The translations under genes and the position numbers were made by a program. This document shows positions 13,162 through 49,700 of a stretch of DNA of 64,000 bases, in pieces. This DNA comes from Antedon bifida (Eukaryota; Echinodermata; Crinoidea; Comatulida; Antedonidae). Where the stretch lies: NCBI GenBank assembly GCA_963402885.1, contig OY727093.1, forward strand, positions 1,984,001 through 2,048,000. Direction: 5' to 3'. Numbering within the stretch: the first letter of the stretch is position 1; each line of letters starts with the position of its first letter. A model generated the notes under the pieces. That model saw only the letters and a program-made list of their open reading frames with translations. It searched no databases and had not been told where the DNA came from.

Positions 13162-16100
13162 ATGGACGTATCAGCTCCATTCATCGCCAACTATTGGCAG
13201 TATATTTTAACTGTATGTATTGGAATTATCATTGTTCAATTTATTCAAAGCTTCTACAAAAATTCTTCTTCAACAAATCGAAGTAGTGTCGACGATAATC
13301 GGAAGATATTTGTCGATAACGACGACGATGAAGGCTGCGTTGACGATAACGGTAACCAGAGTGTTCCAACCGATGACGATTGTGAACATATACCTTATGG
13401 TATGGTTAGGTACCCTAACGATGAAATGTTGACTAGATCTAGACATTTCTACGAAGAAATGAATAAACGGAGATCTGTACGATTTTTCTCAGATGAACCT
13501 GTGGCACTAAATGTCATTGAAAATGTTCTCCTAACGGCAGGTAAGCTAGGCCTTGAAATATTATTTGTAAAAAAATGAGTAGGCCTAAGTATATTGAGCA
13601 TTAAAATTAGTATTAAAGATGTATTTATATGTAAATAATTTTAATGTCACTAATATGTATTTACTCTGACCAAACATTGGATCGAAAAAACTGATATTTA
13701 CCTAAAAGCATGTAATTTAAGAAAAAAATAGTCAAATTGGCAGCCAGCCAATGGGTTTTTGGTTGAATGTACCCATTTATTTTGTCATTTTATAAATGAA
13801 AACACTATTTTTTCTGTGAATGAATGAATGTATGTCAAATTATCAAAATTCTAAACGTCTAGCCAAATGATAAGGGAAAGAACGTATTGTGTGTATGGCC
13901 TACCAGCAATACTACATTTTAAATAGTTTATTAATAAACCATACGGATGAAATATGGTCGGCGCTTTGGATCTGAACAATCAATACCTATATTTGGATTC
14001 ATACCGCATGTTTACGCACGCATGTGCAGGCAGCCTCTATACAGTTCATTCAATAACCAAACAGACATTGTCTTCGTTATAGATTACATCCATACATGTT
14101 TGTTTATATAATAAAAGGTAAAGGTAAAGGTATTTATATTTGTCCTCAAGCTTAACTGGAAACTGAGGAAATTCGGATTAGGCCCTCCACGGACCCACGG
14201 CAGCCAGTAATATATTATATATATATAAATTCAAAGGCAAATTACTGAAAAATGACAATGCTGTGGGTATCAGTGGCTGGATCTCAATGGAGATACAAAA
14301 AAAAAGCGAAAAGCTAAATCAAAACGATAAAGTAAAACAGCCAGAAAAGTTAGCAGAGCTTTCGGGCAACACTAGCCCTTCATCAGTGCAATACATACTT
14401 TTCTTCATAATTCACAATTACATTTACAATATTCAATAGTAGTATACAAAAAGAGGCAGTTGCTTGTCAGTTTGGTAACCATTTAAATGTACAGTATATA
14501 CATGCCAGACAACATTCATGTACAAAAAAACAACATGGGTCGCCCACGACGACCGGTCAGACAATGTTTCCATATTGAAGATATGGCAAGATAAGAGCGT
14601 TATATAGATTTATTAATATGTGTACAGGAAATATATTTTAACTTTGCAGATGATACCAATGACCTTAAGGATCTTATCTATATTATAAGTGAGAGAGTTT
14701 GTACGTTTGTTTGTTCGTTATATACAAATTAATTGTTACTGCACTTTTATGGGGTATCAAAATGACTGCAATTGTACCGGGAAGGTTCTAAACTATATTT
14801 GAACATCATCCGCCATCGTGGTTCCAAGTTAGGGGCCAAAATGTTGACAAAATGGCCCACTTTGCACCACTTTCGTTAGACAAATTTTTGTTTCTGCACG
14901 TAAAAATTACTGCAATTGTACCGGGAAGGTTTTAAACTACATTTCAAAAATTCCCCAAGTTGTGCTAGGGGTAGTAGGCTATATCAAATTGACCAGAATT
15001 GTATTTTAAAATATTTTAATTTTCCCGAATAGGGATTGGTCGTAGTGTTAAAACAAATGCTCCTCACTTCTTTTCACAGTAAAGTTTCCTTCAAAAGAAA
15101 GGTATTTTATACTCTGTATCAAAGGTTGTCCGCAAAAATAACTTAAATTTATAGATGACTACTCTATAGGCTTTCGACTACAAAAGAATCTTTTGAGAGT
15201 GGGGTTGTAGCTATGTCTTTTTAGAGGGCCCTAATGGCCTAAATGATCTATAAACTGGATAGGGCCAACCACAATAAATATGGTATTAATTAATACATTT
15301 TGTATAATTATATAGGAACCGCCCCTAGCGGAGCTCACACAGAACCATGGTTTTTTGCCGTAGTCTCAAATCCAGAAGTTAAGTCCAGCATTCGAGAAAT
15401 AGTTGAGGAAGAGGAACGAATCAACTATGCGAAACGGATGGGGCAGAAGTGGCTAGATGATCTTGAAGTTATAAAAACAACATGGAGAAAGCCATATATA
15501 GAAACCGCACCTTACGTCATCGTGGTTTTCAAACAGGTGAGTAGTTCTTATCCGTCATCTCGAACGCGTTTGCGTCGTCCTCAGTTGGTACCAAACGCGT
15601 TACGAAAACACGTTTACCTGCTCTAAACTCATATAGCACAAACGAGTATTATTACCTGATTTACACCATAAACGTATTTTTATTCTTCATTGACCATAGG
15701 CTCTATTTGATGTCATCGCATGCAAAAATAAATAATATACCATTGTATCTTTAGGTTTACGGTTTAAAGAAAGACGGTACACGGATTGTCCACTATTACA
15801 ATGAAATGAGCTCGTCTATTTGCGTTGGATTCCTTCTTGCTGCGTTACAGGTAATGTAGAAACAGTTCACTCCGCCGGTATTTGCAGATTCCGGTTTCGT
15901 CTTCCCGCCAACCAACTAGATGTTGGGCAGTCAATTTACAAGTCTCTGACACTAGGCCTACTTTCTGTTATAAATTAGATATACTAATTCAAAACAATAA
16001 TGAAATAAACATGTCTCATTTTCTTCCAGAATGCAGGACTTGCAACGGTAACCTCAACTCCAATGAACTCAGGCCCACGCCTCCGTCAACTACTAGGTCG

Positions 16101-28795: not shown

Positions 28796-31700
28796 CTGTG
28801 GGGAGATAAGTAAATCATACATCAAATTCAATTTCAAATTGCTATCATTACCCTAGTAAAAATGAAAGTGGGATCCCAGTGGGATCCCAGGGGATCCCAC
28901 TGGGATATGGTTATCCCAGTGGGATAGCACCATCCCACTGGGATTTTATATTGACACAGTGGGATTTTCTAGGATGAGTGAAAAATCCCAGTGGATCCCA
29001 CTGGGATAGATATATCCCAGTGGGATTGTTTTATCTCACTGGGATAATATGAAATCCCAGTGGGATTCAAATTATCCTACTGGGATGAATAAAATCCCAG
29101 TATTAAATACCACTACTTTATCAAATCCCACTCAAGTGGGATAAAATCCCAGTACCATCCCACTCCTTTGTAAAATCCCACTCAAGAGGGACAAAATCCC
29201 AGCTCCATCCCAGTACCATCCCACTACTTTATCAAATCCCACTCAAGTGGGATAAAATCCCAGTACCATCCCACTCAAGAGGGACAAAATCCCAGCTCCA
29301 TCCCAGTACCATCCCACTACTTTATCAAATCCCACTCAAGTGGGATAAAATCCCAGTACCATCCCACTCCTTTATCAAATCCCACTCAAGTGGGATAAAA
29401 TCCCAGTACCATCCCACTCAAGAGGGACAAAATCCCAGCTCCATTCCAGTACCATCCCACTACTTTATCAAATCCCACTCAAGTGGGATAAAATCCCAGT
29501 GCCATCCCACTACTTTATCAAATCCCACTCAAGTGGGATAAAATCCCAGTACCATCCCACTACTTTATCAAATCCCACTCAAGTGGGATAAAATCCCAGT
29601 GCCATCCCACTACTTTATCAAATCCCACTCAAGTGGGATAAAATCCCAGTACCATCCCACTCAAGAGGGACAAAGATCACACAGCCCCCTCAAAACACAA
29701 CACTATATAAACAAACAAAACCCCTGGACACACAAAGATGTGCGAGTCGGGGAAAACCCCATCCCCCAAAATACTCCCACTTTTAAACGCGCATTCACAT
29801 TTTCTATTTTTATAGATCAATAAAATCCAGTGTGCCACCCACTCAATCATCAGATTTTTGTTGGTTTTGCGTTATTTTATAGTCTGTAATACATCGTAAA
29901 TGATCAGATAAGAGCCGCCGATTTCGGAAAAGGAGGATACCCGGCATCATGGCCGTGGCTTCTTTGATCACTTACGATGAGCGAGTAGTTTATGTCATCT
30001 CATTCTATTTAACATCCATTTTATTAACAAGTTTTTGAGTTAACTCTTTTATATTTACTATGTTTCATAACGTTTACAAGTTTTAATTAATTGTTGAGTT
30101 GAGTTCCTTTAATATGTTGAGGGTATTACGCTATTGGTTTCCTAGCTGATGAGTGCAATGCACGCCTGCATAGACAATGCATGTTAATTGTTGTGCAGGA
30201 GATCCGATCAATAGCCACCTCCCTAACTGAGGATCGAAACAGTTATCATCATTGGTGTCATATGAAAAATAAATTTAAATCAAAATAAAAAAGTAATTGG
30301 CTTAAATACACTCAAAATTTATATTTTTGGAATTCCCAAAATCAATTTAACCTGTGCAATAAATGATGATGATAGCTGTCCTGGGATAAACAACCCAGTT
30401 ACTTATTTTTATACTAATTTGGTAATCAACATCGACAGCAGTGGTTCAGAAAGAGTCGAGCTCATTGACGATTTCACATGATCTCGTCGGCTTTTCTTTG
30501 TATGCCTCACAGCAGTAGGTAAGTACTGTACTTATTATTCTCTCCAAGCTTTTGGTTGGTGACTTGGCAAAAAAACCCATTCCAGTATGTTTCATCTTGA
30601 ACAATAATTTTTGTTAGACGGACATAATTGTTTATATAGCAACTAAATGAATGATAATGGTTAATTGATGAAAGATTATACAGCATAGCGTCACTTTGAT
30701 CAGATCTCCTGATAATGAATTAATGTAAAGGAAACCAAAAGCGCAATATTCATTATAATAGTATTCCATCTTGGTTAGCCAATTAATAAAAATTGTAGAA
30801 ACAACTTGACAAGTCATTATTATCAAATCAATCTTATTATCCTAGCAAACACCCTGGACACACAAAGATGTGCGAGTCGGGGAAAACCCCATCCCCCAAA
30901 ATACTCCCACTTTTAAACGCGCATTCACATTTTCTATTTTTATAGATCAATAAAATCCAGTGTGCCACCCACTCAATCATCAGATTTTTGTTGGTTTTGC
31001 GTTATTTTATAGTCTGTAATACATCGTAAATGATCAGATAAGAGCCGCCGATTTCGGAAAAGGAGGATACCCGGCATCATGGCCGTGGCTTCTTTGATCA
31101 CTTACGATGAGCGAGTAGTTTATGTCATCTCATTCTATTTAACATCCATTTTATTAACAAGTTTTTGAGTTAACTCTTTTATATTTACTATGTTTCATAA
31201 CGTTTACAAGTTTTAATTAATTGTTGAGTTGAGTTCCTTTAATATGTTGAGGGTATTACGCTATTGGTTTCCTAGCTGATGAGTGCAATGCACGCCTGCA
31301 TAGACAATGCATGTTAATTGTTGTGCAGGAGATCCGATCAATAGCCACCTCCCTAACTGAGGATCGAAACAGTTATCATCATTGGTGTCATATGAAAAAT
31401 AAATTTAAATCAAAATAAAAAAGTAATTGGCTTAAATACACTCAAAATTTATATTTTTGGAATTCCCAAAATCAATTTAACCTGTGCAATAAATGATGAT
31501 GATAGCTGTCCTGGGATAAACAACCCAGTTACTTATTTTTATACTAATTTGGTAATCAACATCGACAGCAGTGGTTCAGAAAGAGTCGAGCTCATTGACG
31601 ATTTCACATGATCTCGTCGGCTTTTCTTTGTATGCCTCACAGCAGTAGGTAAGTACTGTACTTATTATTCTCTCCAAGCTTTTGGTTGGTGACTTGGCAA

Positions 31701-34700
31701 AAAAACCCATTCCAGTATGTTTCATCTTGAACAATAATTTTTGTTAGACGGACATAATTGTTTATATAGCAACTAAATGAATGATAATGGTTAATTGATG
31801 AAAGATTATACAGCATAGCGTCACTTTGATCAGATCTCCTGATAATGAATTAATGTAAAGGAAACCAAAAGCGCAATATTCATTATAATAGTATTCCATC
31901 TTGGTTAGCCAATTAATAAAAATTGTAGAAACAACTTGACAAGTCATTATTATCAAATCAATCTTATTATCCTAGCAAACACAAATCCATACAGTAATAC
32001 TGATCCAGATTGTTTATTGGAAATTGTATATTACAATACAGTATAAACAATTTTGTAGGCCTATTTAAAATTAGTTTGAAAATAACAATGCAATATACCA
32101 AACTTTCAAATTTCCATGAAGCAGAGAAATGTCAGTAGAATAATAGATTGATAACAAATGTGTGTAATAACCTGTGTGTTCAAAGACCATTTTTTCCAAT
32201 TACTTTTCATACCATACATGATAAATTCCATTGGTTTTTATGATTGATTCCTGTGCACATTTAAAGCTCAGGTACAGGCATGAATTTTAAATGTAATATC
32301 TGGTTAATTGTACATAAATCAAATATTTATAATGAAATCAAGACAAAAAAACATGAATTTCCCTTAATATGGTCAAATACAAAATTTGGCAAAATTCTGC
32401 CATAAAAACTAGGAAGACCTTTTTTCAGTAGTTAGGTAGTTAACCTAATGTAATAACATGTCTGGTGACTCCCTAGAAGGTGAAAAAAAGATGGTGGATA
32501 TACAGTGGATAATTTTTGCTATAGCATGAAAATAAAAATCTGAAGTTGAATAAAAATACCAGAACTGTAAAATTCAAGTTATATTACCTATATTTAGTCA
32601 TCTGATAACATTTTTTACCACACCGTTTAGTTTTCATAGCTTTTTAAAATGCCTCTCTATTTACAAAATTTGTGTACAAAAGAATAGAGATTTTACTGTG
32701 TAATTTGAAAAGGGGTTTCATTTTCAGACATCAGAAAACAAATAATTTGTCCAAAATTCAATGAATCTGAATCTTTGTATACAATAGAATAATTTTGTGT
32801 TCGTTTTGTTGTGCTAGTGGTTTTAGAAGTGTAGCAATGTTTACCGATTTTGTACTTAGAAAAACTCTTTGTGAAACGGATATTTTGTGGTTGTTCAAAG
32901 TAGTTAGCAATATTTGGCAATCTTTGAAATTTGCCAATAACGCCATTGGCAACAGCCTGATTTTCCTCTGTTGCTAGTTTTGATGACAGTTTACTAAAAA
33001 GCTTCTTCATGTCATTGTTATTTGTTTCCTCTGTTAAACTTCTCACTAAGTCAGGAAGGGCCTTTGTCATTTGTACTGCGAATGAAATCACTGATAAGAA
33101 AGTGCTTATTTTCAACAAGCTCGTGTAACACAAATAAAATCCCAAAAATTATGAAACATAGGGGAAACTATAGATCGATAATTATTGGAATGTATGATCA
33201 ATAGAAATTTTTTGCCCGCACCTGGCCTTTAAAGCTTTTGAATCAAAATGTAATCAACAATCATAATAAAACATTCAATTTGATTAGAGATTCAATATTC
33301 AATTGTGTTCAAGCAGATTTGGTGGATATGACATATACATGCCATCATCTGTTTCAATAAATACACACTTCTTACAGATTTCTGTAAGAGGAAGCAAGAT
33401 ATTATTACCTGGGGTTACAATTGCCATATGATTACAAAGTTGTCTGTGTGTGTAACTGTTAAGGGTTGGGTTTTGAATGCGAGTTGGTGCAATTAGAGAC
33501 TGATTAGAAATGTATTTTTGGACAATTGCAAAAGGGGTTTCATTTTCAGACATCAGAAAACAAATAATTTGTCCAAAATTCAATGAATCTGAATCTTTGT
33601 ATACAATAGAATAATTTTGTGTTCGTTTTGTTGTGCTAGTGGTTTTAGAAGTGTAGCAATGTTTACCGATTTTGTACTTAGAAAAACTCTTTGTGAAACG
33701 GATATTTTGTGGTTGTTCAAAGTAGTTAGCAATATTTGGCAATCTTTGAAATTTGCCAATAACGCCATTGGCAACAGCCTGATTTTCCTCTGTTGCTAGT
33801 TTTGATGACAGTTTACTAAAAAGCTTCTTCATGTCATTGTTATTTGTTTCCTCTGTTAAACTTCTCACTAAGTCAGGAAGGGCCTTTGTCATTTGTACTG
33901 CAAATGAAATCTGAAATCCAAGAACATTATTTATTACTGTATTAAAAAGTAAAATAAGCATTAGCATTATTTCTTATTATTATTATTATTATTTAGCTTT
34001 CAAGCACCTATATATAATTGTACATATAATAATGAATGTATACCTGGCTATTCACATATCTTGTGCCATGAAACATACTTTTGAGGTGAGCATTCATTGA
34101 CTCGAACCCAAAGCAAGAAAAATGGAAAAGTGGGCCATACAGTTTAACAAAGTATGGCATGTGTCGTAATGTGTGAATATTCATTGTCTGTCTTGTTTCA
34201 CCTGCCGAGGGAAAAGGCATATACCGTATTCATTTAATGTGATTATACTCATTGTTCATTTCTACAAACAATATGACAATCATGTTTATTAACTAGATAC
34301 AAAAGTTGTCAAATGTGCACGTCATCAGGCTGAGAGTATAGAAATCATATTTATGTATTCTCAATCATTGAATGGTTTGAAAAATTGTAATAAATATGCA
34401 GTTGCATTTACCGTATATAGTTGGAAAAATTTGACAAAAATCATTCAGAAGAATGTTGGCATATGAGAGGTCTGCTGATGTGATGCGTTCTTGAACAAGC
34501 AGAGACAATCCAGACACTAATAGGCAATAGTGGATGAAAATATCCGGTTCCAATATGCCTCTTAACACAGGTACTGAAAAGTGAAGTAACCATTCACGGT
34601 ACTCTGTAGCTGTAATAACAACGCAAAAGTCACATAATCATGGAAAAACAGGTGTCTAGGAAACTTGGATATATCTGAGTTTTCTAGATCTAGAAAACTC

Positions 34701-37700
34701 AGATATATCTGAGCTCTGAGTTTTCTAGACACCCTGAAAAAACGGCTACAATTTATGAAACATGCAATCCAGTTGAAGGTCGCAAAATGATTGAAGGTTA
34801 CATTGGTAATATTTTCAACATTTGCTTTTGATGTGTTTTGTCTGATCATACCATATTCAACTTAAGGAAATAAAAATGGTGCACGTCATACTCTGTATAT
34901 AAACAGTATAGACTACTGGAAAAAAATGAAAAAGAATTTTATTACCTTTCCAGTGCTGGCTTTCCTCCAACCTTCTTTGACTACGAGCAATAAAATCGGG
35001 TAACTTTATCTTCATAAATCTTGTATTCATAAGATCAATCTACATTAACATTCAATTTATATTTATTATTATAATTAAATTAGGTGTATCAGAATATGAA
35101 ACATTAAAAATTGCTAATAACAATATAAAAAGGACTAAATAAACAGTATAGTATTGTGTGTAATCTAAATGCATATTCAACAGTTATCAGTTAGAACACA
35201 AGTGACAAATTAGCTAAATTATTCAAACAATGATTGTTTAGAAGCTCACTGGAATTAAATCTACATAATTTGTGTTTATAAAAGAAGTATGTGCAATTTC
35301 AAATGAAATTTTCTTTTAAATATGTTTTACCTTAGAACCAATATAAAACTTCTTTGCCTTGTGGTCTTTTCCAAGCCACAAGTTCAACATGGATTTGGTA
35401 ACTCCTAACAAGCAGGAATGCATCCAGTCAATTGGAAATACACATGATAAATCAACATAGCTCAAAGCTACCAAAGGGCATGCTCCCTTTATTCCTCTGA
35501 CCTGAAAGTATGAAAATATATCAATTAAATAATGGAGCTATAAATTGTGATTGTATAGGCATTGTACAATAACTTTACACAATCAATAAAAAAAAGTCTA
35601 CAATAACACTGAGACAATTTGATTGTTGTCTCAGAATAACAGTAGCCGTTTACAACTGTTATATCTAGCGGTACCACAAAGGATTTCATGACCTAATTCT
35701 ACTTGGTAGTCATGGCATCTGTAAAAAAATATTGTAACATGTTACAATATTTTTTTCTCATGATCACTATGGTAACAGAGTGCAGTGAATTCCATGTTAT
35801 TGTTGACGACCGAGCGAGTTCATTGCGGAAGTTTACAATCGTCACGTTCACGCATTTCCTTTCTGGTACGCGGTACGAAGCGAATTTAAATATATGTAAA
35901 CACTTATAACCCCAAGGTCGCTGATACCAATAATATTTATGGCTAGTCTGGTTAGTAGGACTACTACTGATATACCTTCAGCACAGCTGAGTTGGTGGGT
36001 AGACTAGGCCTAGCCTAGAGTGGATGATTTGAAGGCTAGCTATTTTGTTAAGTATCACTAAAAAGGGAAACGTCCGTAATTTTTCAGAAATCAATGACGA
36101 ACGTACGGAAATGAAGACCAAAATACATAAACTACCAGCAATTATAATTTACCTTAAATTTTAGGAAACCCTCAGCAAAACATAATAATTAATGAACAAA
36201 TCAACGACTCGAACTAAAAGGTCCGTAATGCAAGCTTCCGGGTTTCTCCATACTACAAGCATGGACAAGCGTTGAAACACGGCATGTGTTTCAAGGAGCA
36301 ACGGGCAGAGTACAATGCACTGGGTCTGTCAGTTCGAAAATCATTCTGCGCAGTCTCAAAAACCACTGAAAATAAACGTCTGGGAGCGTCTTTGGGTAAA
36401 GATAGCGTTTAACGTTTTTCGTGGGCGACTACTCACTGATTTTAACTGATTATTGAAAAGCGAAAACTTTGATATAAAATGATTTTAAAAAAAATTTATT
36501 TTCAAATAAATTGTTATTCGGCGTTATGGAGCAGAATAATAATAATAATAAAATAACTCACAGCCTTGCGTGTTACGGCAGCAGTTCTGGCGTCTTGAAT
36601 GATAGTTTGATGTGACCGATGTTCATTGTTGTCAGTGAACGGATAGTGTCTGTGAAGTGGGGCATTTGGTCTTGTCATACCCTCGTCTAAACAAAGTGAA
36701 CAGCCAAACCGACCATTAAATTGTTTCATATTAGACACCATTGCTCTGGCCGGTAAGTCTAAACACGATGCCAGTAGATGCCCTTTTACTTGTTTTTCTC
36801 CATAGCACGTCATGATTTGAATTCCTGCGATTGAATCATCAGTGTACAAGTATCATATAAATATTTAGCCAGAAAAGTTGTTATGGTTTTATTATATTTA
36901 TTTTAATCCCCTTCCCCCTTTACAGCGAACCCCCATCCCCGACATGCCCAATACCTCATCCTCATCTCCCACAGTACATAAGGTTGTTCGTAAATTGAAA
37001 AAATCGTAAACTCGTTCGTGAATAACTCTAACCAGGGAGATGTAAAATAAACTAACTTCTTCCCTCCTGTATGAGGGTACGTCGAGCGATACGTGTCTGT
37101 AAATTTCAAAGAGTTGCTAATGAATTGCAGATTTTCAGCTGAAATATAAATACGTATTTTTGGTACCTGGATGCCCCTGGATGTAACATGTTATTGTTGT
37201 TATAGCCTTCTTCCGACGTACATAAAAAAATTGAACGCTGCGGTTATTATAGTATTTATGTTTATGAAATATAGTGTATCATCATCATAGAGCATTATAG
37301 TGAATATTAATATATTACACTATACTTTCTATAGAATCATGTACTGTAGTTTACATTATAACATCCGATTTATTTTATAGGCCACCAGCCGATACGTACT
37401 CAACTCAAATACTACCTATTTGTCCGAAGCCCCCCCCCCCCCCCCTTTGACAGACCCTGGCTACGGCCCTGTACGTTACAGTATTTTGAACATTAAAAAA
37501 AAAATACGAACCTCTACTAAACCGCAACAGAACGTCAATAAGTGATCGCAAGTATGTCGTCATACTTGGCTTTTCGGCTTGGCAGTGCAGAAGACATGGT
37601 ATTATGTATCGTCTTGCAAATCTGAAATGTGTAAATAGTACGGTATTGGTGGATCATTCCAGAACAGGTTAATTATAACCTACCGGTATGTCTTATATTT

Positions 37701-40700
37701 TGCATTAACATTTGAAATTTAGGCGATCCAACAATCGCCCACCCCCTCTTCATCCTCTCCCACTGACATCTAAAAAAACACCAGTAAAGTAATTTTTTAA
37801 AGTATAAGTAATTTATTTTACAAAATATATTGCATGTTATTACTAATGTACCTACCTATATTGCACTGGCAATTCATTAATTGCCAAGTATACAGGCCAG
37901 AGACTTCCTTTATTTGATGATTTGAAAACTGCCACGCCATCTGCATAAAAAAAATCATTTCAAAAAAATGTATCATCCACATTTAGGCTATGACATACTG
38001 AACGCTTTATTGGGATTTTTCCCTTCGACCCCACCGCGACATCGCGGCGGCAGCCACATTACCCTCAGGAAAGTGATGATGATATGTGTTAGTTGTTAAT
38101 TTCATATCATAAATAACTACCATGATGCTAACCAGTATTCATCATGAATGTCAGATGAACAGTATTCATCATCGGTTCTCTTGGAACAATTCTACTGTAC
38201 TCTTCACCGTCACATACGTCCTTCCACACACCAGCTTCCGCGTACCGACGTCTTGCCATTACCATCTCACAAAAATGTTGATCTGAAAAATACATTTATT
38301 TAAAAAGAGGTTAGAAAACGTGTCTGTTATTTTATAATACCACTGTGTATTTGAAAAGGTTGTATACAATAACGTCATCTTACCTTGGAAAAGTTTTTGA
38401 ATCTGATTTTCGACATCCAAGCTTAAGTACTCTAGCACTTTCCCACTCATGTCCGTACAGTTACATGAATCGGATGACGTTTCCACTTCTCTATTGCAGT
38501 TTTCGCAGTAAAAATGGGTTGTTGATGTTTCAAATTGGGTATTTTTCTTTAGAATCTCTTTGACCATGTAAGTTGACTTAGCGATGACACACGTTGGTGG
38601 AAGTATAGAGGCAATCAAATGTAGAAGATCGGAGAATGCTTCTCCCGAAAGTGAATGTTTGATAACGAATAGCATTAAAGATGTATATAGAGAAATATGT
38701 GTCTGAGGACAACCGTCAAATAAAGGATGTTTGCCATTGACGGGTTCCTCGCCTTCGATGTTGTCGTACTCATCATCTGTCGGTGCGTCACTACTGATCG
38801 AAGGATCGGTGGTAGGCCGACTTGAGATGGTACTATCACTACTACTACTATCGTCAGTATTTGAGACATTTTCTGGTGATGAAAAAATGGAGCTACTCCT
38901 GTCTAATTCAAAATCAGACTCACTTTCGCTTGACGAAGAACTTGTCAATATTGATTCCCTTAATAAGGGGCCAGGTGTTTTTTTAGCTAATATTACTGCT
39001 TTCAAATATCGAGCACGTCTAGGGTTAAACCCATGACGTTTTGATAGTACACGCCGTCTCTTTTGCGGTGTTGCCAGAAATTGCTCTTCTGTTGTGGTGG
39101 TATCACTTGAATCCATGTTGCATACTACTAGGCCTAGTACTACCTACAGTATCGAAATTAATAAAATGTTAAAAACAAATCAAAGATAAACGCAAGCAAT
39201 TATATAGCAAAAATGATTACCTCTAAAAAGGGCACCTTGTAAAATTTAGGGGGGGTTGCATGCGGACCCAATGACACAATATTGATTGATTTTTATAAAG
39301 AATATAAAGCCTTATTAATTATAATATAAGTTAAGTTATATTTTAGGCCTAGCCTATATTGAAAAATCAGTACTTACTACTTGATTTAAATAGAGTTCTT
39401 TCAAATCCAAACATATTACCGCGAAATTTGAAAGACGATGCAAGCTTGTGCACAATATGTCAAAAGGGCAGCCCTGACTAGGCCTAGCCTAGGCCTAGGC
39501 TCTTAATATAATATTAGGACTTGCCCAAATTTAGCTTACTGACGTAGGCCTATAATAAGTAGAAACTAATACAATATGGCTATTCTATAGCTAGGCATTC
39601 CGGATAGACATAGGCCTAGGCCTATATGTATATTATTTGCTTTAAAAAAAAAAGAAATGTGACACATATAGGATAGCTTAGGCCTAGCTAGGCCTATTAT
39701 AGGCCTATACAACATAGGCTAGGCTAGCCTAAAAAGCCTATTAGGGCCTAGTATAGCCTATGTATGTAGCCAATATAGGGCTAGGCTATATGCCTATAGG
39801 CTAGGCCTATTATACTAGCTAGCTATATAGGTGAATGGGTCTTGTTATAAGTTTACACGTCCCAAATAAAATGTAGGACTCATCATGTAAATCTATGTAT
39901 GTATTTTACTGACCTGTTGAGGTGTACAGTGTTTAGCTCTTCATATTATTCATCATCTAGGCCTAGCGTGTGTAGCGTTCTCCGCTCTCTGCTGGCACGT
40001 CACACGACCAAAGATCGTATAGCGTCACTTCGTTTTATCTTTTGCACACGACGATAGGAGCCGCCGGACACGTCACACGCCGTATATACGTGACATGTCG
40101 TGCGCATATTATACGCGTCTCGCACGCGACGCCCGGGGCATACCAAACATAACAAGGGGGCGGCTCGCGGCGGAGGCGTCTTCAGATAATTTTCAAAAAT
40201 CGTGTGAAAAAGGGTGATATTCAATATCCATGACGGGTGGTAAATATGGTAACAAATTCACTTTAAGGATAAATTCCAGTAATTTAGAAACAAATTATGA
40301 AAATAAAAAGGGTGCGTAAAATTACCCGTATCATCTGTCCGTCCGTCCGTTCGTCCGTGCGCGTAAGTTTCAAATCATTTGGCGGTCGATCCTCCTCTTT
40401 TTTCTCTTGTTCTTCTTCTCCGCCCGTCGGTTGTCTGTTCATCATCATCATCTTTTTAGTAAATTTGTTTAATCATTATGGGTCTAATCACATTAATGAT
40501 TTGGATTAATGACGATCCTGTTACGGGTAATGTTATCAAAATAGAGAATATTGTAGAGCCACGGTGGGAATTGAATGACTATTTAGTAGGAGACCGTGTT
40601 AAAGCAAAGTGCCCAGGTTTTGGTATACAGACAGGACTGATTGGAGAAATAGGCGGTAAGTTAATTTATTTGGTCCAACAGCACTCATATCATTGTATAG

Positions 40701-43700
40701 CCTTAGGTTCGACAACCGTAACACACAAATTAATTTGTGATAGGCCTATTAATAAAACTTATGATATGGTCTAGCCTATTAAATAAGATTTTAAAAGTAA
40801 TAGGCCCTAAATTAACTTAACGTCACTGGAGGACAACTGAAATTTATAATTACCAATAATAATGGTTAGGGCCCAGGCCTACCCTAGGCCCTAGGTAGGT
40901 ATAGGGCCTAGTTAGGCCTATATAACTCTCTCAACCTTAAAAGTATACCTGTTTGCCAACATTTAGTTTTACTTTTAGGCTATACTATTTTTTGCAGATG
41001 AATCAATGCGAAAAAAATTCTCCAAAATACTTTCTGGCCCAGAGTTTCCAGATTTGGTCTCCCAAGTCCTGGAAAGTGAGACACATATCCAGAAAGGGCA
41101 AAAGGCGAGTACATACATATACTAATTAGGCCTATGCCTACTACTATCATTATTAAAGCAGATAAAAAGTTACAATCAATAGGCCCCTAGAATAAATGAA
41201 ACAATGATACACTTTAAACTACAAAAATTGAATAATACACTAGGCCCTAAGCCTAGGCTACATCGAATACATTTAAGCTGCATGAAGTTAGCAGTTAACA
41301 GTTTCTTAAAAAGAGAAAGTGTTCATATAGTATATGCCTATATATTCATGTATAGTCATACAAATAAAATATGATATTAATGTGGGAAAGCTATATTAAC
41401 GGTGAAAATTAAATATTTTTTTATTTATTACAGAAAGCATTAGAACTAATGCCACCAAAGAAAAAGGTAGGGTTCATTGTGTTTATAGTCTATATATGCC
41501 GATTTTAGTACTGTAAACATAAACATGTTTTGGTTGTGTGACCGTTTTATTTCATTTACAGGCTGCCGCATCAACCGTTTCCGTTCCACCAACAAAGAAG
41601 ATAGTAGAGGTAAATTGTTCTCATTGAATGAATCAATTGTGATGAATAATTTACGATACCGAATGAAACTATCGTTCCGTATTTATTCGAATAAAACACC
41701 TTTCATAGCAGAATTCTTTGACTTCCATGATCTACAATTTACCAAGCATTTTGATACAATTTTACATTATTTTATCACTTCTTAATATTAATTGTGTTAT
41801 ACTATAGTTTTTCATACCTATGTGTTTTTTTTTATTGGGAGTTTATTCGAACAAATACGGCATGTGAAAATCCAACTTTCATGGGTGCATGCCATTCACA
41901 TTAAGGGTGCATAATTACGTTTTTGTTTTAAATTACAGATGGCTTCAGAACCCATACAACAAAAGAAATCCTCAAAAAGGAAAAACGTAGAAGTACATTG
42001 TGTTTAGTATTTTCCACTTACTTTTGCATTTTGCACTTGCATTTTGTTTTTGCCAAATTGTTTTTAATACTTTAATAGGCAGCATTTTGATACAATTGTT
42101 ACTGTATTTTACCAGTTCTTGTTATTGATTGTGTTATAGTTTTTTATATCTAGGGCTTTATTATTTGATTATACATGTTACTAATTACACCCAAAAAAAT
42201 AAACGCCCTCGCCCAAAATCACCACATGCATTATTTTTGTTTATATTTATTTTTATATTTATGTTATGATATCCAGCTTTCATGATTTTAAATCTACCAT
42301 TGTTCTTGATTAACGTGAACTACGCAATTTTTTATTTAGCATTCGTCTAGTCTATGCCGATGTTAGTACTGTAAACATAACATCACAACAACTGCCTTTA
42401 GATAATAATTATTAATAAATATTTTGGTTGTGTGACCGTTTTATTTCATTTACAGGCTGCCGCATCAACCGTTTCGGTTCCACAAAAAAAGAAGATAGTA
42501 GAGGTAAATTTTTCTCATTAAATGAAGCAATTGTGATGCATAATTTACGATACCGAGTGGAACTTTATTTATATATTTATACAAGTTACCATAAACGCAT
42601 CGAATAAATAGTCATTGCGACTTGTTTTTATATTATCCAGGATATTATTATTATTTTATGATATCCAGCTTTCATGATTTTAAATCTACCATTGTTCTTG
42701 ATTAACGTGACCTACGTAATTGTTGCTCGAATATAATTACAGGCAATCACGGTAAAAAAAGCCGTGGCAGCTGAGAAGAAGCAAAAAGAAAAAGCGAGGG
42801 AACAATATGCAGTGTCCTCAACATTAAGTTTGGTAGATGGAGGGAATTATCAGGACATAATAGATAAGGTAAAATATGTTTTAAAAATGTATTTAGCCCA
42901 AAGTTGAATAGTTCAATTTAAAGGCCAGGTGCGAGCAAAAAATGTCTATTGATCATACATTCCAATAATTATCGATCTATAGTTTCCCCTATGTTTCATA
43001 ATTTTTTGAATTTTATTTGTATTACACGAGCTTGTTGAAAATAAGCACTTTCTTATCAGTGGGGGGATAGTTCAAATTACACAGTAAAATCTCTAGGCCT
43101 ATTCTTTTGTACACACATTTTGTAAATAGAGAGGCATTTTAAAAAGCTATGAAAAATAAACGGTGTGGTAACAAATGTTATCAGATGACTAAATATAGGT
43201 AATAAAACTTGAATTTTACATTTCTGGTTTTTTTTATTCAACTTCAGATTTTTATTTTCATGCTAGCTATAGCAAAAATTATCCACCGTATATCCACCAT
43301 CTTTTTTCACCTTCTAGGGAGTCACCAGACATGTTATTACATTAGGTTAAACTACATAAAAAAAGTCTTCCTGGTTTTTATATTTTATAATTTATTTTGT
43401 ATTTGACCATATTCATGTTTTTTCGTCCTGATTTCTGTTACAAATATTTTATTTATGTACAATTAACCAGATATTATATTTAAAATTCATGCCTGTACCT
43501 GAGCTTTAAGCATAAGTATCCCTCAACTCCGATTGTTCATTTGTTTGTAAACCGTTATGCACAATAAATGTCTATAGTTATCAATTAATAATTATATGTA
43601 ATTTAATTTGATTTTTGAAGCTCAACCGCATAGAACAAAATCAACAAACTATTATGTCGTTGATGCAGGACAGGCAAGCTGTCAAGTTCTTGTACAAGGT

Positions 43701-46700
43701 ACGGTAGATGAGACACAATTTAAAGTAATATATGTTAGCTTGTGTAATATCTGTGAAACTGAACATATTTTTCAGAATTTGAATTTTTAAACGTTTCAGA
43801 ATTTGAAGACTGCCGCCGTTGCGGATGATGGACGATGTGAGTACATAAGATATAATTTGTAATAATTTGATGTCTCTCCTTCATATAAAGTTGCAATCTT
43901 TAATATATTTTTAAAAATGTTTTCACACTTACGTCGTTTAGTATAATGTAACTTAGTCAGAGTAGTAGGGCAAGCTGACCAATTACTCGGCTTTCTGACG
44001 CACTGAGCTGCTACACAGTAGTTACATACAATTATCATTAATTATACCGTATTCTATATTAACTTATTTGTAGTGGCTGATCATATATCTGGTGAAAGCA
44101 GGCATGCGGCGAAATCGCCACCATCATCATGTCCTCTTCCTCCTCCTCCTCCTCCTCCTTCTTCCCAAGAGGATTCTGATACTAGTGGTAGGTTTTGAAA
44201 ATAATTGTTTAGCCGGCCGTGAATTTGGTGTGTTATTTATTATGTTGATCTAATCGATTGGAAACAATTTATACATGTGACCTACAAGGATTTATAAATA
44301 CTTTTTAAAAACATTCCTCGTTGTAATGTTCTTGGAATATAAACACATCATAACTTTTTTTTTTTGTTTTGTTTATAACAAGAATTTACATACATGGGTG
44401 ATGCGAAATTTGGGGTCAGTGTCAGCAGGGAGAGGCTGACACTGGCTGAAATGTCGGCAACCAACATAATGAAGCTGGCCCTTAACCTTCTTGAACTGGT
44501 TGTTTGCAAAGAAGAATGCGCCACTTTAAGCATTTATGGATTTGGCCGGGACAAGGTGGCGATGGCCGAGGTTAAAAGACGGGCGCTTAGAAGTGAGTAA
44601 ATTAACAGTATCTTTGGTTACGAAAGCAGCAATCCCCTTCCAAGCCCCACCTGTGGAAACTTTATGTTTAATGTTTCTTTAAAACAACTCGTCTGTTGCA
44701 GCACTATAGGCCCACTGTGTCATTGTAATGCGTCTTGTATGCATGGACAATAATTAAACACTGTAAATAAAAACACAACACAACATTCTGTGATTTAACC
44801 GGCGTATTGTTTTATTTCAGCTCACATATTCAAACGATACCAAGAAGTTCAAGTTGAGCAAAGGGAGCAGGTGTGGACCGAAATTGTCAAAAAACTAAAT
44901 GATAAAATTAGAGCAATCAAAAATAACAAATATACTTTGAAGTATTAATAACGAGATGTTAATGTGATTAAAAGATAATTTAAAATGCAATATGTCGACT
45001 TATGATTTTTTATCACAGCGAGAATACCCCCAAAAAAACCGATCGGGATTCCCGCCGGGATCCCGCCTGAATCCCGATGGGAAATATCACAAATTACCCA
45101 AATCCCATCGGGATCCCGGTGGGATTTTACGCAAATCCCATCGGGATCCTGGTGGGATTTTACGCAAATCCCACCGGGATCCCGATCGATTTTTTTTTAA
45201 TGAGGAAGGATCCCAGTGGGATTTTACGCGAATCCCAGCGGGATACCGCTGGGAATCCCGATCGTTTTCATTTTAAATTCAAGCGGAATCGCACCGGGAA
45301 TCCCGACCATAAATCCCAGTGGAATTTTACGCAAATCCCGGCAGGATCCCGCGAAAATCCCGATCGTTTTCTTTTTAAATTCAAGCGGGATCCCAACGGG
45401 ATCCCAACGGGATCCCAACGGGATCTCGCGGAAATCCCGATCGTTTTCTTTTTAAATTCAAGCGGGATCGCACCGGGATCCCACCGGGAATCCCTACCAT
45501 AAATCCCAGTGGGATTTTACGCAAATCTCGACGGGATCCCGCGGAAATCCCGATCGTTTTCTTCTTAAATTCAAGCGGGATCGCACCGGGATCCCAACGG
45601 GATCCCAACGGGATCCCACCGGGAATCCCGACCATAATTCCCGGTGGGATTTTCGTAAAATCCCACCGGGATCCCAACGGGATCCCGCCGGGAATCCCGA
45701 TCGTTTTTTTACCCGGGTACTACAACATTCAAATTCAAACATCTTACAAATTTTAATTATTCATCCGGGAGTAAAATATGAAGCATTAGACGATGTCTGA
45801 AAATCACAAGTTGAGAAACAAAAACTGATAAATAGTGATGTGTAACATGTGTTATTACCGTGGCGATGATCTCATAAGAAAGATGTCAACATTTGTCAAT
45901 GATGACACACTGTAGTTGACAGACGGTTCAGTATTTGTAATGAATTTGAAATGTAGACAATGAAAAATATCAAACAGACTATTGTAACTTAACTGAAATC
46001 AAGATAACATAATCCATGTACGAACAAGTGTATTATTAAACACTAAAATACACTATTATGTTTATTAGGCTTAATAACATACAGTATTGTTATTTTTCGA
46101 ATGATGACCTACTGAAGCGTTTAAATATTGATTCTCTGACCAATGATATTCCTTTAATTATTAGTAGCCACAATTAAGCTCTGTCTAAACCATCAAACTT
46201 TATGTGACAAAAAATGTGATGTGCCAATATATGGACATGATGATGTCATATCACTACCATATTTAAGTATATCACTATCATATTTGGCCACATCACACTT
46301 TTTTTTGGCAAACTAGTTTGATAGTGTAGACAGAGCTTAATGAATCCTGTCAAAATGATTCTACTACAGTAAATACGTTTTTACTGCAATAAACTGTGTA
46401 TATGATGCCAAAACAAGTTTGCAGAATAATTGTATATAAACAAATTCAAGAGTAAACAAAATGTAGTCTATATTTGAATAGTGTTACTTACTTGGTCTGT
46501 GCACCACCTATTATGTAACGTGGGTCTTAGCTTCTCTACACATACAACTTTTCTCATGTACTCAAAACTAGGGTCGTTGGGAACATATTCATAAAATGGT
46601 GGTTTATATTCCTCACACAAACCTGAAATAAAAAATAAATATAAATTCAAATTAACATTAATGTATCTTGAGCATATAATTATTATTGGCTTAGTCATAA

Positions 46701-49700
46701 GCAATGTAATATCGTTCTATGAAATCAGCAAAACTGTATGTTGTTTTGGATTTAAATTTGTAACAACTAACCTCAAAGTGTACATACTAGGTCGTAGTGC
46801 AATTAAATAAAATATGTTTGTAGCAGAATATCCACATATAGATATGAATATCACTAATCATTTCATTTCATTTTTTCAACAACAAAATGACATTAAAAAA
46901 TAAAGTAAATAAAAGATAATCTCTGTCTCCTCCCAAAGCCTGGCAGCATCATCAAAAGGATAATTAAATACTGTCGAATGACTTTCCAAGCATATTGGTG
47001 GAATCAGAACATATTATACAAGAAGCTGTTTTGTAGCTAACAGGGCCAAATTGCACACCAAACAAATCTACATATCATTGTGGATAACCTTTTCGACAAA
47101 ATATGGTGAACCTTATAACTAGCCTCTTCTTCCTTCCTATAGTATCAAAGGTCAAAATCACTGACCCCCCCCCCACCCCCCATCGTTACCTGATTATTAT
47201 CAACCACCTTACCTCCAATCTCACACCGCCTTCCAACTTCCCATAAGACCATTCCAAAAGCGTAGACATCAGCTCGCTTGAAAGACTCAAAGCTTTCCAT
47301 GTTCATAGTCTCGTCCAACATTTCTGGCGACATATACCTTTTCGTTCCAACTTTATTGTTAGATCCTACGTTAATAGTATTAGAACCTTCAGAATGTAAA
47401 ACGGCCAATCCTAAATCCGCGATACAACATGTGAGATTGTCCCGAACTAATATATTTTTAGTTTTAATGTCTCTATGCGCAATGGCAGGCTTTGTTCTAT
47501 TACACTTTATCTCCGTGTGCAAATGGACTAATCCGCTTGAGGCAGAAAGAAGCAGACGACACATTAACGGCGGATCTAGAATGTTCCGGTTCAAGAAATC
47601 GTAGAGTGAACCGAGAGGATGGTAATGAGTGATTAACCAAAGTTGCGTGCAAGAATTACGAGACGTCATGTCAGATGCGATGAAACCCAGAATATTATCG
47701 TGCCTCAATAACACTGTGTTATAAATCTCTGTTTCTCGTATCCAAGATTTTTCGTCTCTTGAACTAAATATTTTGACGGCAACGTTTTCTCCCTGCCACT
47801 GACCCCTCCAGACTTCACCATACCTGCCTTTACCTGAAAGATAATTATAAGAAAGATTTATAATTTTATTTTATCAACAAAAACAACCAAGATTAATAAA
47901 AAAATGTAATAACTATATTGTGTTTCTGGCCATTCATTCATCAGTAAAATCAACTTTAACATTTATTGTCATGTAGATGTTACAAATAAAAACAGAAGGT
48001 ATTTTTAGAATTGGAAAAGAAAAAGATTGTCATTTCAAATGCATTATCAATCAAAATAATGTCACGCTATAAATATTAATAACTTTGCAAACCCTAATAT
48101 AAATATTATGGCAATATTTTTCTAAGGAACTTTCTACAAATTGAATTTAAATTAAAAACATATCCGAGTTTAATAAACCATACAAATGTACAAATTGAAT
48201 CTCTATTCATGTAACAGAAATTAAATCATCTTCTTTGTAATATTAAGCTATAAAAAAAGGGCAAAATTAATATGTTTTCATGGCAACCAAGTAGGTTCTC
48301 ATGGAAACGATGTATAATATAACTTATGTAATAATGTCTGCGAAATACAAGGATTATTCCAAAATCATTTGTTGCATCGGCAACGATGAATCATGCTTCG
48401 GTAACAAAGCACATCCCCCTGACAACAGTCTGTGCCGTCATGGTGATAAAGTTGTGCGATCATGTTAAATCCGCAAATGAAATTCCTCGCAATGATCTTT
48501 TAATGTGAACAAGCTTACTGCGACGTAAGCTGTTCTATACTGGGCTATACATTCCTGTATGAGACATGACAGTTTAAGTGCTAAGTAAAATTACCACTAG
48601 ATAAATCACAAAATCTTGTATTAACAACGTTTGTATTACAAATGAGCAAAATACGTTTGTAACATAAAACTTTAGGCAATCAAAGATTTATGCTTCATTA
48701 CACATCTTCTTCTTCTAATTCAAGTTTTTATGTACTCAAATTATTCATTTTAATCATGTTAACACAGAGGATTTATGAAAAAATATGTTATTTTAACGGT
48801 TTCTCATCGGCCAATCAGAAGAAGTGTGAATCCCAGTATATAATGAATCCACACTGCCCCTACACATAAACTAACATTTCACACTAAAATATTTAAATCA
48901 CTTTTTTATTTATTCCAATGTATGGTATAACAAATCATTTATTCATTTCTGTCTCAAAATTCATTTTTGTTCCTATTTCAGTACATTAATTATCATAACA
49001 TATTTTTATCATAACAAAGATTGCTTTTTGTAAAAACCAAAATATTATAAGCGAACTTACAGAACATTTCGTAAAACCAGATGAAATTTTCCCAATATTG
49101 ATTAATATTTTATTCAGGGGAGTTTCTATGAAGTTATTTGTTTGAGGGAGGTATTTATTCGAGGGAGGTATCTATTCGAGGGAGGTGTTTATTCCAAGTT
49201 AACATTTATTAAAATGGTACCTATCTAATTAATATAACATTTCACTAACAATAAATATTAAGTTTTTGCTGCCCAAATGAATAAAGAGCTAAACAAATTC
49301 TTATTCAAAATCAGCCTAAAGTAATTAATGTTCTTTCACTGGAAAAAAACAGATTGAAAATCATTATTAATGTTCCACCTGCCTAAAATATTTGTAATCG
49401 TTACTTTCGCTAAACAGTAAAACACAACGATAACAGGAAGAAATTAACGTAACGTTTATTTTTATTAATCACATGCATTAAAACGATATTGATTTTTGAA
49501 TAGTCACCAGGTAATAAAACTTTCAACAAATTAGTATGGGAACAATTTATGAATTATCAATATTAATAATTGTTATGGAATAATCCCGCCATACATCAAT
49601 ATGACAGATGAAATCTGGGAATTATCCATAGAGGAAAGTTATGGCTTTAGTAATGTGCTGAGGTTATCTTTGTTAGCTTTGAGTTGAAAATGTACCTTAA

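Follow-up and report, generated by a model that had tools for sequence, protein, structure and literature searches.

A 64,000-nucleotide stretch of the Antedon bifida genome (contig OY727093.1; C1:1984001-2048000, hereafter the window) carries two divergently transcribed, spliced genes between short inverted ends, which raises the question of whether these genes form one mobile unit and, if so, what the second does for the first. An initial annotation had proposed a whole 16.9-kb transposon pairing a Tnp2-type transposase with a BEND5-like protein, the latter as an animal counterpart of the plant protein TNPA. Following up this proposal in the window and across the genome (315.6 Mb, 27 contigs), we found that window positions 28851-45717 form a complete DNA transposon of the cut-and-paste type that has been active very recently, and that its two genes also occur together in diverged families.

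A complete and recently mobile element

The element is 16,867 bp long, and its exact ends can be read from the sequence: CCCTAGTAAAAATG opens it at 28851 and TTTTTTACCCGGG closes it at 45717, the right boundary being CCCGGGTAAAAAAAC when read inward. The terminal inverted repeats are CCCTAGTAAAAA on the left (28851..28862, plus strand), identical in three further copies, and, read inward, CCCGGGTAAAAA on the right (45706..45717, minus strand), which is CCTGGGTAAAAA in one copy, on contig C9. The terminal match, CCC..GTAAAAA, is short, with agreement at 10 of 12 positions. A TA target-site duplication borders the element at 28849..28850 and 45718..45719.

Using 112 bases of the right end as a probe, we obtained 57 matches in the genome, three of which had near-identical ends and belonged to whole copies on C10 (17,005 bp, duplication TA), C11 (16,796 bp, CA) and C9 (15,392 bp, TA). 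The C10 and C11 copies differ at 1 of 16,793 aligned bases, while the window differs from C10 at 11 of 16,812 and from C9 at 66 of 15,311. These four copies (family f1) thus lie on four contigs at 0.006-0.43% divergence, and their unlike flanks indicate recent movement rather than segmental duplication. Four other probed regions (C7, C14, C1b and C7b) had only array or short pieces in common with the element and held no whole copy of it. The annotated 16.9-kb transposon was thereby borne out, as was the expectation that the same gene pair would be found between the same ends elsewhere: it is present in all four full copies.

Two genes inherited together

The transposase gene lies on the minus strand (33299..39116) and comprises 10 exons encoding 857 amino acids (aa), with exons 1-5 at 39116-38384, 38282-38133, 37940-37856, 37621-37512 and 36824-36562, and exons 6-10 at 35501-35331, 35039-34946, 34609-34412, 34201-34044 and 33910-33299. 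The BEN-domain gene lies on the plus strand (40478..44948) and comprises 12 exons encoding 386 aa, with exons 1-6 at 40478-40655, 40998-41104, 41434-41466, 41562-41609, 41939-41992 and 42456-42503, and exons 7-12 at 42743-42868, 43621-43698, 43800-43836, 44074-44187, 44383-44592 and 44821-44948. Both models, which reproduce the sizes annotated initially, are free of stops and have GT-AG introns, the sole exception being a GC-AG donor after BEN exon 2 that is kept in all four copies. The transposase frame is intact in three of the four, the C10 copy having a 4-bp insertion; the BEN frame is intact in all of them, with in-frame length changes only (+3, -6) in C9.

Diverged families were found by genome searches with both proteins, after which the loci were read; the match lists are lower bounds. 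The divergent gene pair is kept in f2 (C10:17.05 Mb), f3 (C7:21.42 and C13:23.42 Mb) and f4 (C8:21.34 Mb), plus partial cases. Relative to the window, transposases of these families are 46-64% identical over four conserved stretches and BEN pieces of the diverged families 38-60%. Exon boundaries are likewise kept in the conserved parts of the BEN gene: the end residues agree for exons 1, 11 and 12 in f2 and f3, and for exons 1 and 11 in f4, where exon 12 was not seen. In all 13 codon comparisons, covering both genes, amino-acid change amounts to 0.26-0.58 per site, with synonymous change saturated in 11 and at 2.5-2.8 in two; these rates, crude in being computed from joined tblastn pieces, point to purifying selection on both genes.

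Co-occurrence was assessed by sorting transposase loci by hand into 12 intron-bearing and 12 single-open-reading-frame loci. A BEN match lies within 15 kb at 11 of the former compared to 1 of the latter (p = 1e-4, with family copies not independent), and counting the copies of each family once, by our own grouping, gives 6 of 7 compared to 1 of 9 (p = 0.009). Of 67 BEN rows, 47 entered the first count; the remaining 20 represent additional exons from the four f1 copies. Included among the intron-bearing loci is a decayed f1-like piece with stops (C8:19.58 Mb), and the single-open-reading-frame locus with BEN nearby has a match of E = 0.02 with four stops. The absence of BEN from the other single-open-reading-frame loci is provisional, as a sequence too diverged for the search could be missed. 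From the gene pair kept in diverged families together with this co-occurrence, we conclude that the BEN gene is very probably an integral, stable part of this transposon lineage.

Mobility extends beyond f1. The C7 copy of f3 is inserted in an abundant repeat and flanked by a duplication of TTA (alternatively, TA and one extra base); when its flanks are joined, 40 of 41 listed places match at 99-100% across the junction and represent empty sites. Its C13 counterpart, 99.66% identical to it over 13,344 aligned columns, is flanked by TA; here the joined flanks correspond to the 41st place, at 86% and reaching just 24 bases past the junction. The f2 element is whole (14,874 bp, duplication AA). 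One of the probed regions, C7b (C7:11732796-11737952), is a 5,157-bp sequence with f2-type ends, both arrays and the duplication GT, within which no transposase or BEN match was found; it is a non-autonomous derivative of the kind that a trans-acting system would be expected to produce.

In Pfam, the transposase matches DUF1258 best (2.3e-11, 44.1 bits against a cut-off of 33.1), and Transposase_21 is also above its cut-off (1.1e-8, 35 bits against 28.6). The Tnp2-like assignment holds on these matches; DUF4218, which had been anticipated alongside it, is absent among Pfam matches at E up to 1. DUF1258 has been equated with the Mirage group and is close to Transposase_21 (PMC3985635). Scoring database relatives over residues 260-700 gave 53 matches. 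In the window protein and seven aligned relatives picked from them, D295, D382, C401xxC404, H611xxxH615 and E635 are invariant, and the protein has the catalytic motif that defines the CMC group in the accessible text of PMC12730594. Two additional C-x2-C motifs lie at residues 204-207 and 833-836. The closest of the 53 matches is an 873-aa protein from Solemya velum, 60% identical to the window transposase, and one protein from Porites lutea and two from Branchiostoma floridae (42-44%) complete the top four. At 59-60%, identity to the Solemya protein is about equal to the closeness of other families in the same genome. Such closeness to a clam protein may reflect either old lineages or horizontal transfer.

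Target-site duplications fall within the 2-5 bp range of the CMC group (TA, TA, CA and TA in f1; AA in f2; GT in C7b; TA and TTA in f3). The CA..TG termini of the group were not found: f1, f2, f3 and C7b have CCC..GGG, and the C9 copy of f1 has CCC..AGG. The accessible text of PMC12730594 gives CA..TG for most CMC members only. Judged by its transposase sequence, the element is best read as a Mirage/EnSpm-like member of the CMC group.

The BEN domain was recognized by profile comparison in exons 11-12 (44383..44948, plus strand; residues about 274-386). These exons were isolated from four loci, namely f1, f2, f3 and a BEN locus at C9:8.50 Mb, where a transposase was looked for and not found. 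With the limit set at E = 10, each of the four domains on its own gives a match to PF10523, the best at 8.6e-4, and a profile built from them matches nine BEN domains of the same genome with 95.5% probability (E = 1.5e-8), compared to at most 3.8% in 40 column shuffles and 0.06% for the reversed profile. The nine came from eight of ten small fetched stretches plus one in locus L034; the two stretches not used were a too-short one and a near-identical duplicate of another. Among the nine, L049 is just below the Pfam cut-off. Searched against 177,635 PDB sequences at E up to 10, the domain has a sole match, the BEND3 BEN domain (E = 0.7), and the whole protein gives chance matches only. In NCBIfam, one member had one unrelated match at 2.8e-3, so single-member matches of this size prove little. 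Together, the comparisons support a divergent BEN domain at the end of the second gene; the BEND5 label was too specific.

Exon 1 (40478..40655, plus strand) is conserved in four further loci at 46-54% identity and is predicted to fold as a small beta barrel (five models, mean predicted local distance difference test score 60-75, best model 75). Its top 18 Foldseek matches comprise 15 titled Tudor domains and 3 JMJD2A/B chains, mostly from one protein family (KDM4/JMJD2) and none below E 0.1. On the predicted structure, exon 1 is likely a Tudor domain. A possible coiled coil at residues 190-217 (exons 7-8, 42743..43698, plus strand) shows a heptad pattern by a simple heptad score with no control. 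We also observed a classical BEN domain over the Pfam cut-off just outside an f2-type element (L034 about 2611-2778; C7:23637611). In the accessible text of a paper on a zebrafish gene block, DUF4806, found in several genes of that block, is called a BEN subtype, which provides a lead to further BEN genes of possible transposon origin.

Element ends, folded block and insertion site

Subterminal palindrome arrays had been annotated at both ends, and both exceed chance. The left array (28867..29680) consists of ATCCCA[G/C]TGGGAT quasi-palindromes and 50-bp tandem units and has no CpG, while the right array (45010..45710) consists of CGGGATCCCG-type palindromes and is CpG-rich. The pattern TCCC-n(1-5)-GGGA occurs 8 times on the left, 20 times on the right and not once in the 15.2-kb interior, compared to maxima of 3 (left) and 5 (right) in 200 shuffles. 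GGGATCCC occurs 13 times on the right (shuffle maximum 4) and 3 times on the left, which equals the shuffle maximum there. The motif CGGGATCCCG is common to the f1 right end and the f2 and f3 ends, with 1-6 occurrences per end and 0-2 in the interiors. These same ends have a CpG observed/expected ratio of 1.4-1.7, compared to 0.8-0.9 inside. The f1 left end has 0 CpG in 823 bp, compared to 36.7 expected, and likewise 0 in the other three copies; its motif corresponds to the CpG motif with both CpGs changed to CpA/TpG. Sub-threshold Rfam matches in the arrays (MIR3444 and alike) were read as products of the palindromes.

A second recurrent feature is a folded block of ~130 bp, present at 30119..30246 and again at 31249..31376 (both plus strand). 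The second copy falls within a ~1,130-bp tandem duplication of two units (29716..31982) that is a single unit in the C9 copy. The block recurs in f2, f3, f4, C7f6 and C7b at 71-89% identity and was not seen in the fetched 16 kb of C7f5. Families f2 and f3 and the C7b element carry it inverted on both sides, the BEN-side copy in f2 and f3 falling within the final intron of the BEN gene; f1 has it on the transposase side alone. Seven block sequences have 27 common pairs, 5 of which covary, with both partners replaced in at least one of the sequences, and the consensus energy is -24.0, compared to -5.7 (standard deviation 2.4, lowest -14.5) when columns were shuffled 200 times. Folding is just as favorable on the opposite strand (-24.2), and G-U pairs are somewhat in favor of the strand that reads inward.

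A DNA search of the genome with the block gave at least 37 matches, a lower bound given that the diverged copies L029 and L032 are not among them. Fifteen lie in f1, f2, f3 and C7b copies, one beside the f4 transposase, one beside the f7 transposase, three within 25 kb of BEN matches and six in three inverted pairs (those at C16 17.734/17.741 Mb and C11 13.092/13.099 Mb among them), with 11 unplaced. This placing makes the block look like a mark of the lineage and not a common repeat. Its invariant AGCTGA and GGATCGAAAC are segments that we take to resemble RNA polymerase III boxes. Rfam gave no match at the gathering threshold in the window and a tRNA search found none; hammerhead and snoRNA readings of the block were dropped for want of an Rfam match.

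A partial second copy of transposase exon 10, with 1 stop, lies 3' of the gene (32702..33089, minus strand), and inverted repeat pieces 92-100% alike link the transposase 3' side (32261-33233) with a BEN intron (42917-43509). Both are internal rearrangements.

Outside the element, an exon at 47148-47870 on the minus strand has serine/threonine-protein kinase receptor R3 and activin receptor type-1 as its best relatives in PDB, at E about 1e-100. By eye, we presume the penultimate exon between 45718 and 47148 and the last at about 28795 to 28658, 55 bp from the element. With these two exons so recognized, the host gene is an activin-receptor/ALK-type kinase gene, read from the minus strand, and the element occupies its last intron. 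Further away, positions 15294-15623 (plus strand) hold part of an iodotyrosine deiodinase-like gene, matched in PDB at 2.3e-30. Elsewhere in the assembly, the mitochondrial COX1 (C27) reads open under three mitochondrial codes (5, 9 and 13); the echinoderm/flatworm code, with AAA as Asn and ATA as Ile, agrees best with COX1 motifs and points to an echinoderm host.

Proposed role of the BEN-domain protein and known systems

What the second gene contributes can be approached through the mechanism that we favor as reasonably probable, in which its product is a TNPA-like helper that binds the arrays. A DDE transposase would cut at the short CCC ends and leave a 2-bp duplication. The second gene would supply a chromatin-type DNA-binding protein with a predicted Tudor-like domain, a basic linker, a possible coiled coil and the BEN domain. 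This protein would bind the palindrome arrays at both ends, probably as a dimer, and once bound would mark these ends for the transposase or pair them, a role comparable to that of TNPA alongside TNPD in maize Spm. For this element, we infer the chemistry, the array binding, the need for the helper in transposition and a possible sensitivity to CpG methylation; the helper role draws on BEN biochemistry (PMC11472053), the end motif that the element has in common with f2 and f3, and the analogy with Spm. According to PMC11472053, a single palindromic CGCG DNA is bound by two BEN domains of BANP, the full-length protein prefers this DNA unmethylated, and the fold solved in BANP and NACC1 has two N-terminal strands and five helices. 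In Spm, TNPA binds the subterminal repeats and both proteins are needed (PMC2613891).

Several results weigh against the helper reading. The whole 386-aa protein has no BEN match in Pfam at E up to 1, the isolated window domain matches PF10523 at E = 0.088 with 13.5 bits (cut-off 23.2), and a genome search with PF10523 listed 18 places with no f1, f2 or f3 BEN exon among them; it is this score and these missed exons that mark the domain as divergent. The protein database, where transposase relatives were found, gave no homologue of the BEN protein among the 7,995 scored candidates sharing most words, which low-complexity words may crowd, or among 98 candidates in a second search. The intron-bearing transposase C7f5 has no BEN in its fetched 16 kb, the nearest match being 23 kb off, and several BEN matches have no nearby transposase match in lists that are lower bounds. 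A strictly CpG-reading BEN domain would not see the CpG-free left array of f1, and arrays are known only for f1-f3 and C7b, as the f4 ends lie beyond the fetched stretch.

The CpG content of the ends admits other roles. The BEN-Tudor protein could be mainly an anti-silencing or insulator factor that keeps CpG-rich ends unmethylated and the element expressed, with no role in cutting. The high ratio at the f1 right, f2 and f3 ends (1.4-1.7 compared to 0.8-0.9 inside), the preference of BANP and BEND3 for unmethylated CpG (PMC11472053), the Tudor-like predicted fold of exon 1, and TET/JBP genes on other CMC-group elements, thought to counter silencing (PMC12730594), would all suit such a factor. 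However, the arrays hug the very ends on both sides, like the excision-relevant repeats of Spm, and the left array of f1 is without CpG, so we regard this role as unlikely, if credible. We judge quite unlikely a three-part system in which a DDE transposase, a Tudor-BEN reader licensing transposition via chromatin and CpG methylation at the arrays and a folded RNA or DNA hairpin near the ends act together. The CpG-free left array would then be a methylation-proof anchor and the CpG-rich right array a switch, with the hairpin inverted at both ends in several families.

Alternatively, the BEN gene might be a captured passenger, with the transposase itself binding the arrays, possibly through its two further C-x2-C motifs (204-207 and 833-836); transposons commonly capture genes. 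The BEN position, orientation and exon edges are nevertheless the same across families with a protein identity of only about 50%, and this fixed position, the purifying selection and the 11 of 12 co-occurrences are too stable for a passenger, which makes the idea very unlikely. Another possibility is that the BEN protein controls transcription of its own element, through promoters that lie in the end arrays or between the divergent genes. This would agree with the BEN proteins characterized to date, most of which act in transcription or chromatin, and with TNPA, which regulates its own element too (PMC2613891). The gap between the genes is without an array, in keeping with the complete lack of palindromes in the 15.2-kb interior, and we consider autoregulation still more improbable. 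That a transposase relic happens to lie beside a BEN gene of the host, or that the assembly is at fault, is scarcely credible: this reading is refuted by four copies on four contigs with unlike flanks, exact duplications and 0.006-0.43% divergence, and by a second family with empty sites.

If the helper reading is correct, it would matter beyond this locus. The plant pair TNPA and TNPD has defined the workings of big Tnp2-type elements, and a BEN partner would connect transposon biology with the chromatin regulators that make up this animal family and suggest a source of, or a destination for, BEN domains. The element is near-intact and recently active, which makes the helper, the arrays and their CpG content open to direct testing. 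A BEN-bearing CMC element was not found in full-text searches, which had most subscription papers and Repbase itself outside their scope, and we provisionally regard the element as new.

By analogy, the element looks like an animal system built like classic maize Spm. It shares with En/Spm (CACTA) the Tnp2-type transposase, a second element-encoded protein, subterminal arrays and short terminal repeats, and differs in its ends (CCC..GGG compared to CACTA), its BEN (and Tudor-like) helper and its animal host. The target-site duplication of Spm is 3 bp. Its size (16.9 kb) resembles that of plant CACTA elements such as Tam1 (17 kb) and Tgmt* (20.5 kb), whereas its duplication is 2 bp compared to 3 bp in Tgmt* (PMC2613891). 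Spm proteins come from alternatively spliced transcripts of one unit (PMC2613891), whereas here there are two separate divergent genes. Mirage animal transposons have the same best Pfam family (DUF1258, 2.3e-11), and the accessible text of PMC3985635 mentions no second gene for them, unlike the BEN gene found here. ESTA and the fungal EnSpm/Plavaka elements with TET/JBP likewise combine a CMC-group transposase with an accessory chromatin-type gene, and ESTA has TA duplications as here, but their accessory gene is an oxygenase, the host is a fungus and the ends of the group are mostly CA..TG (PMC12730594). Nuwa also pairs a transposase with a separate DNA-binding protein, although it is of the Harbinger-type superfamily, with a Myb/SANT helper and 3-bp duplications (PMC12730594).

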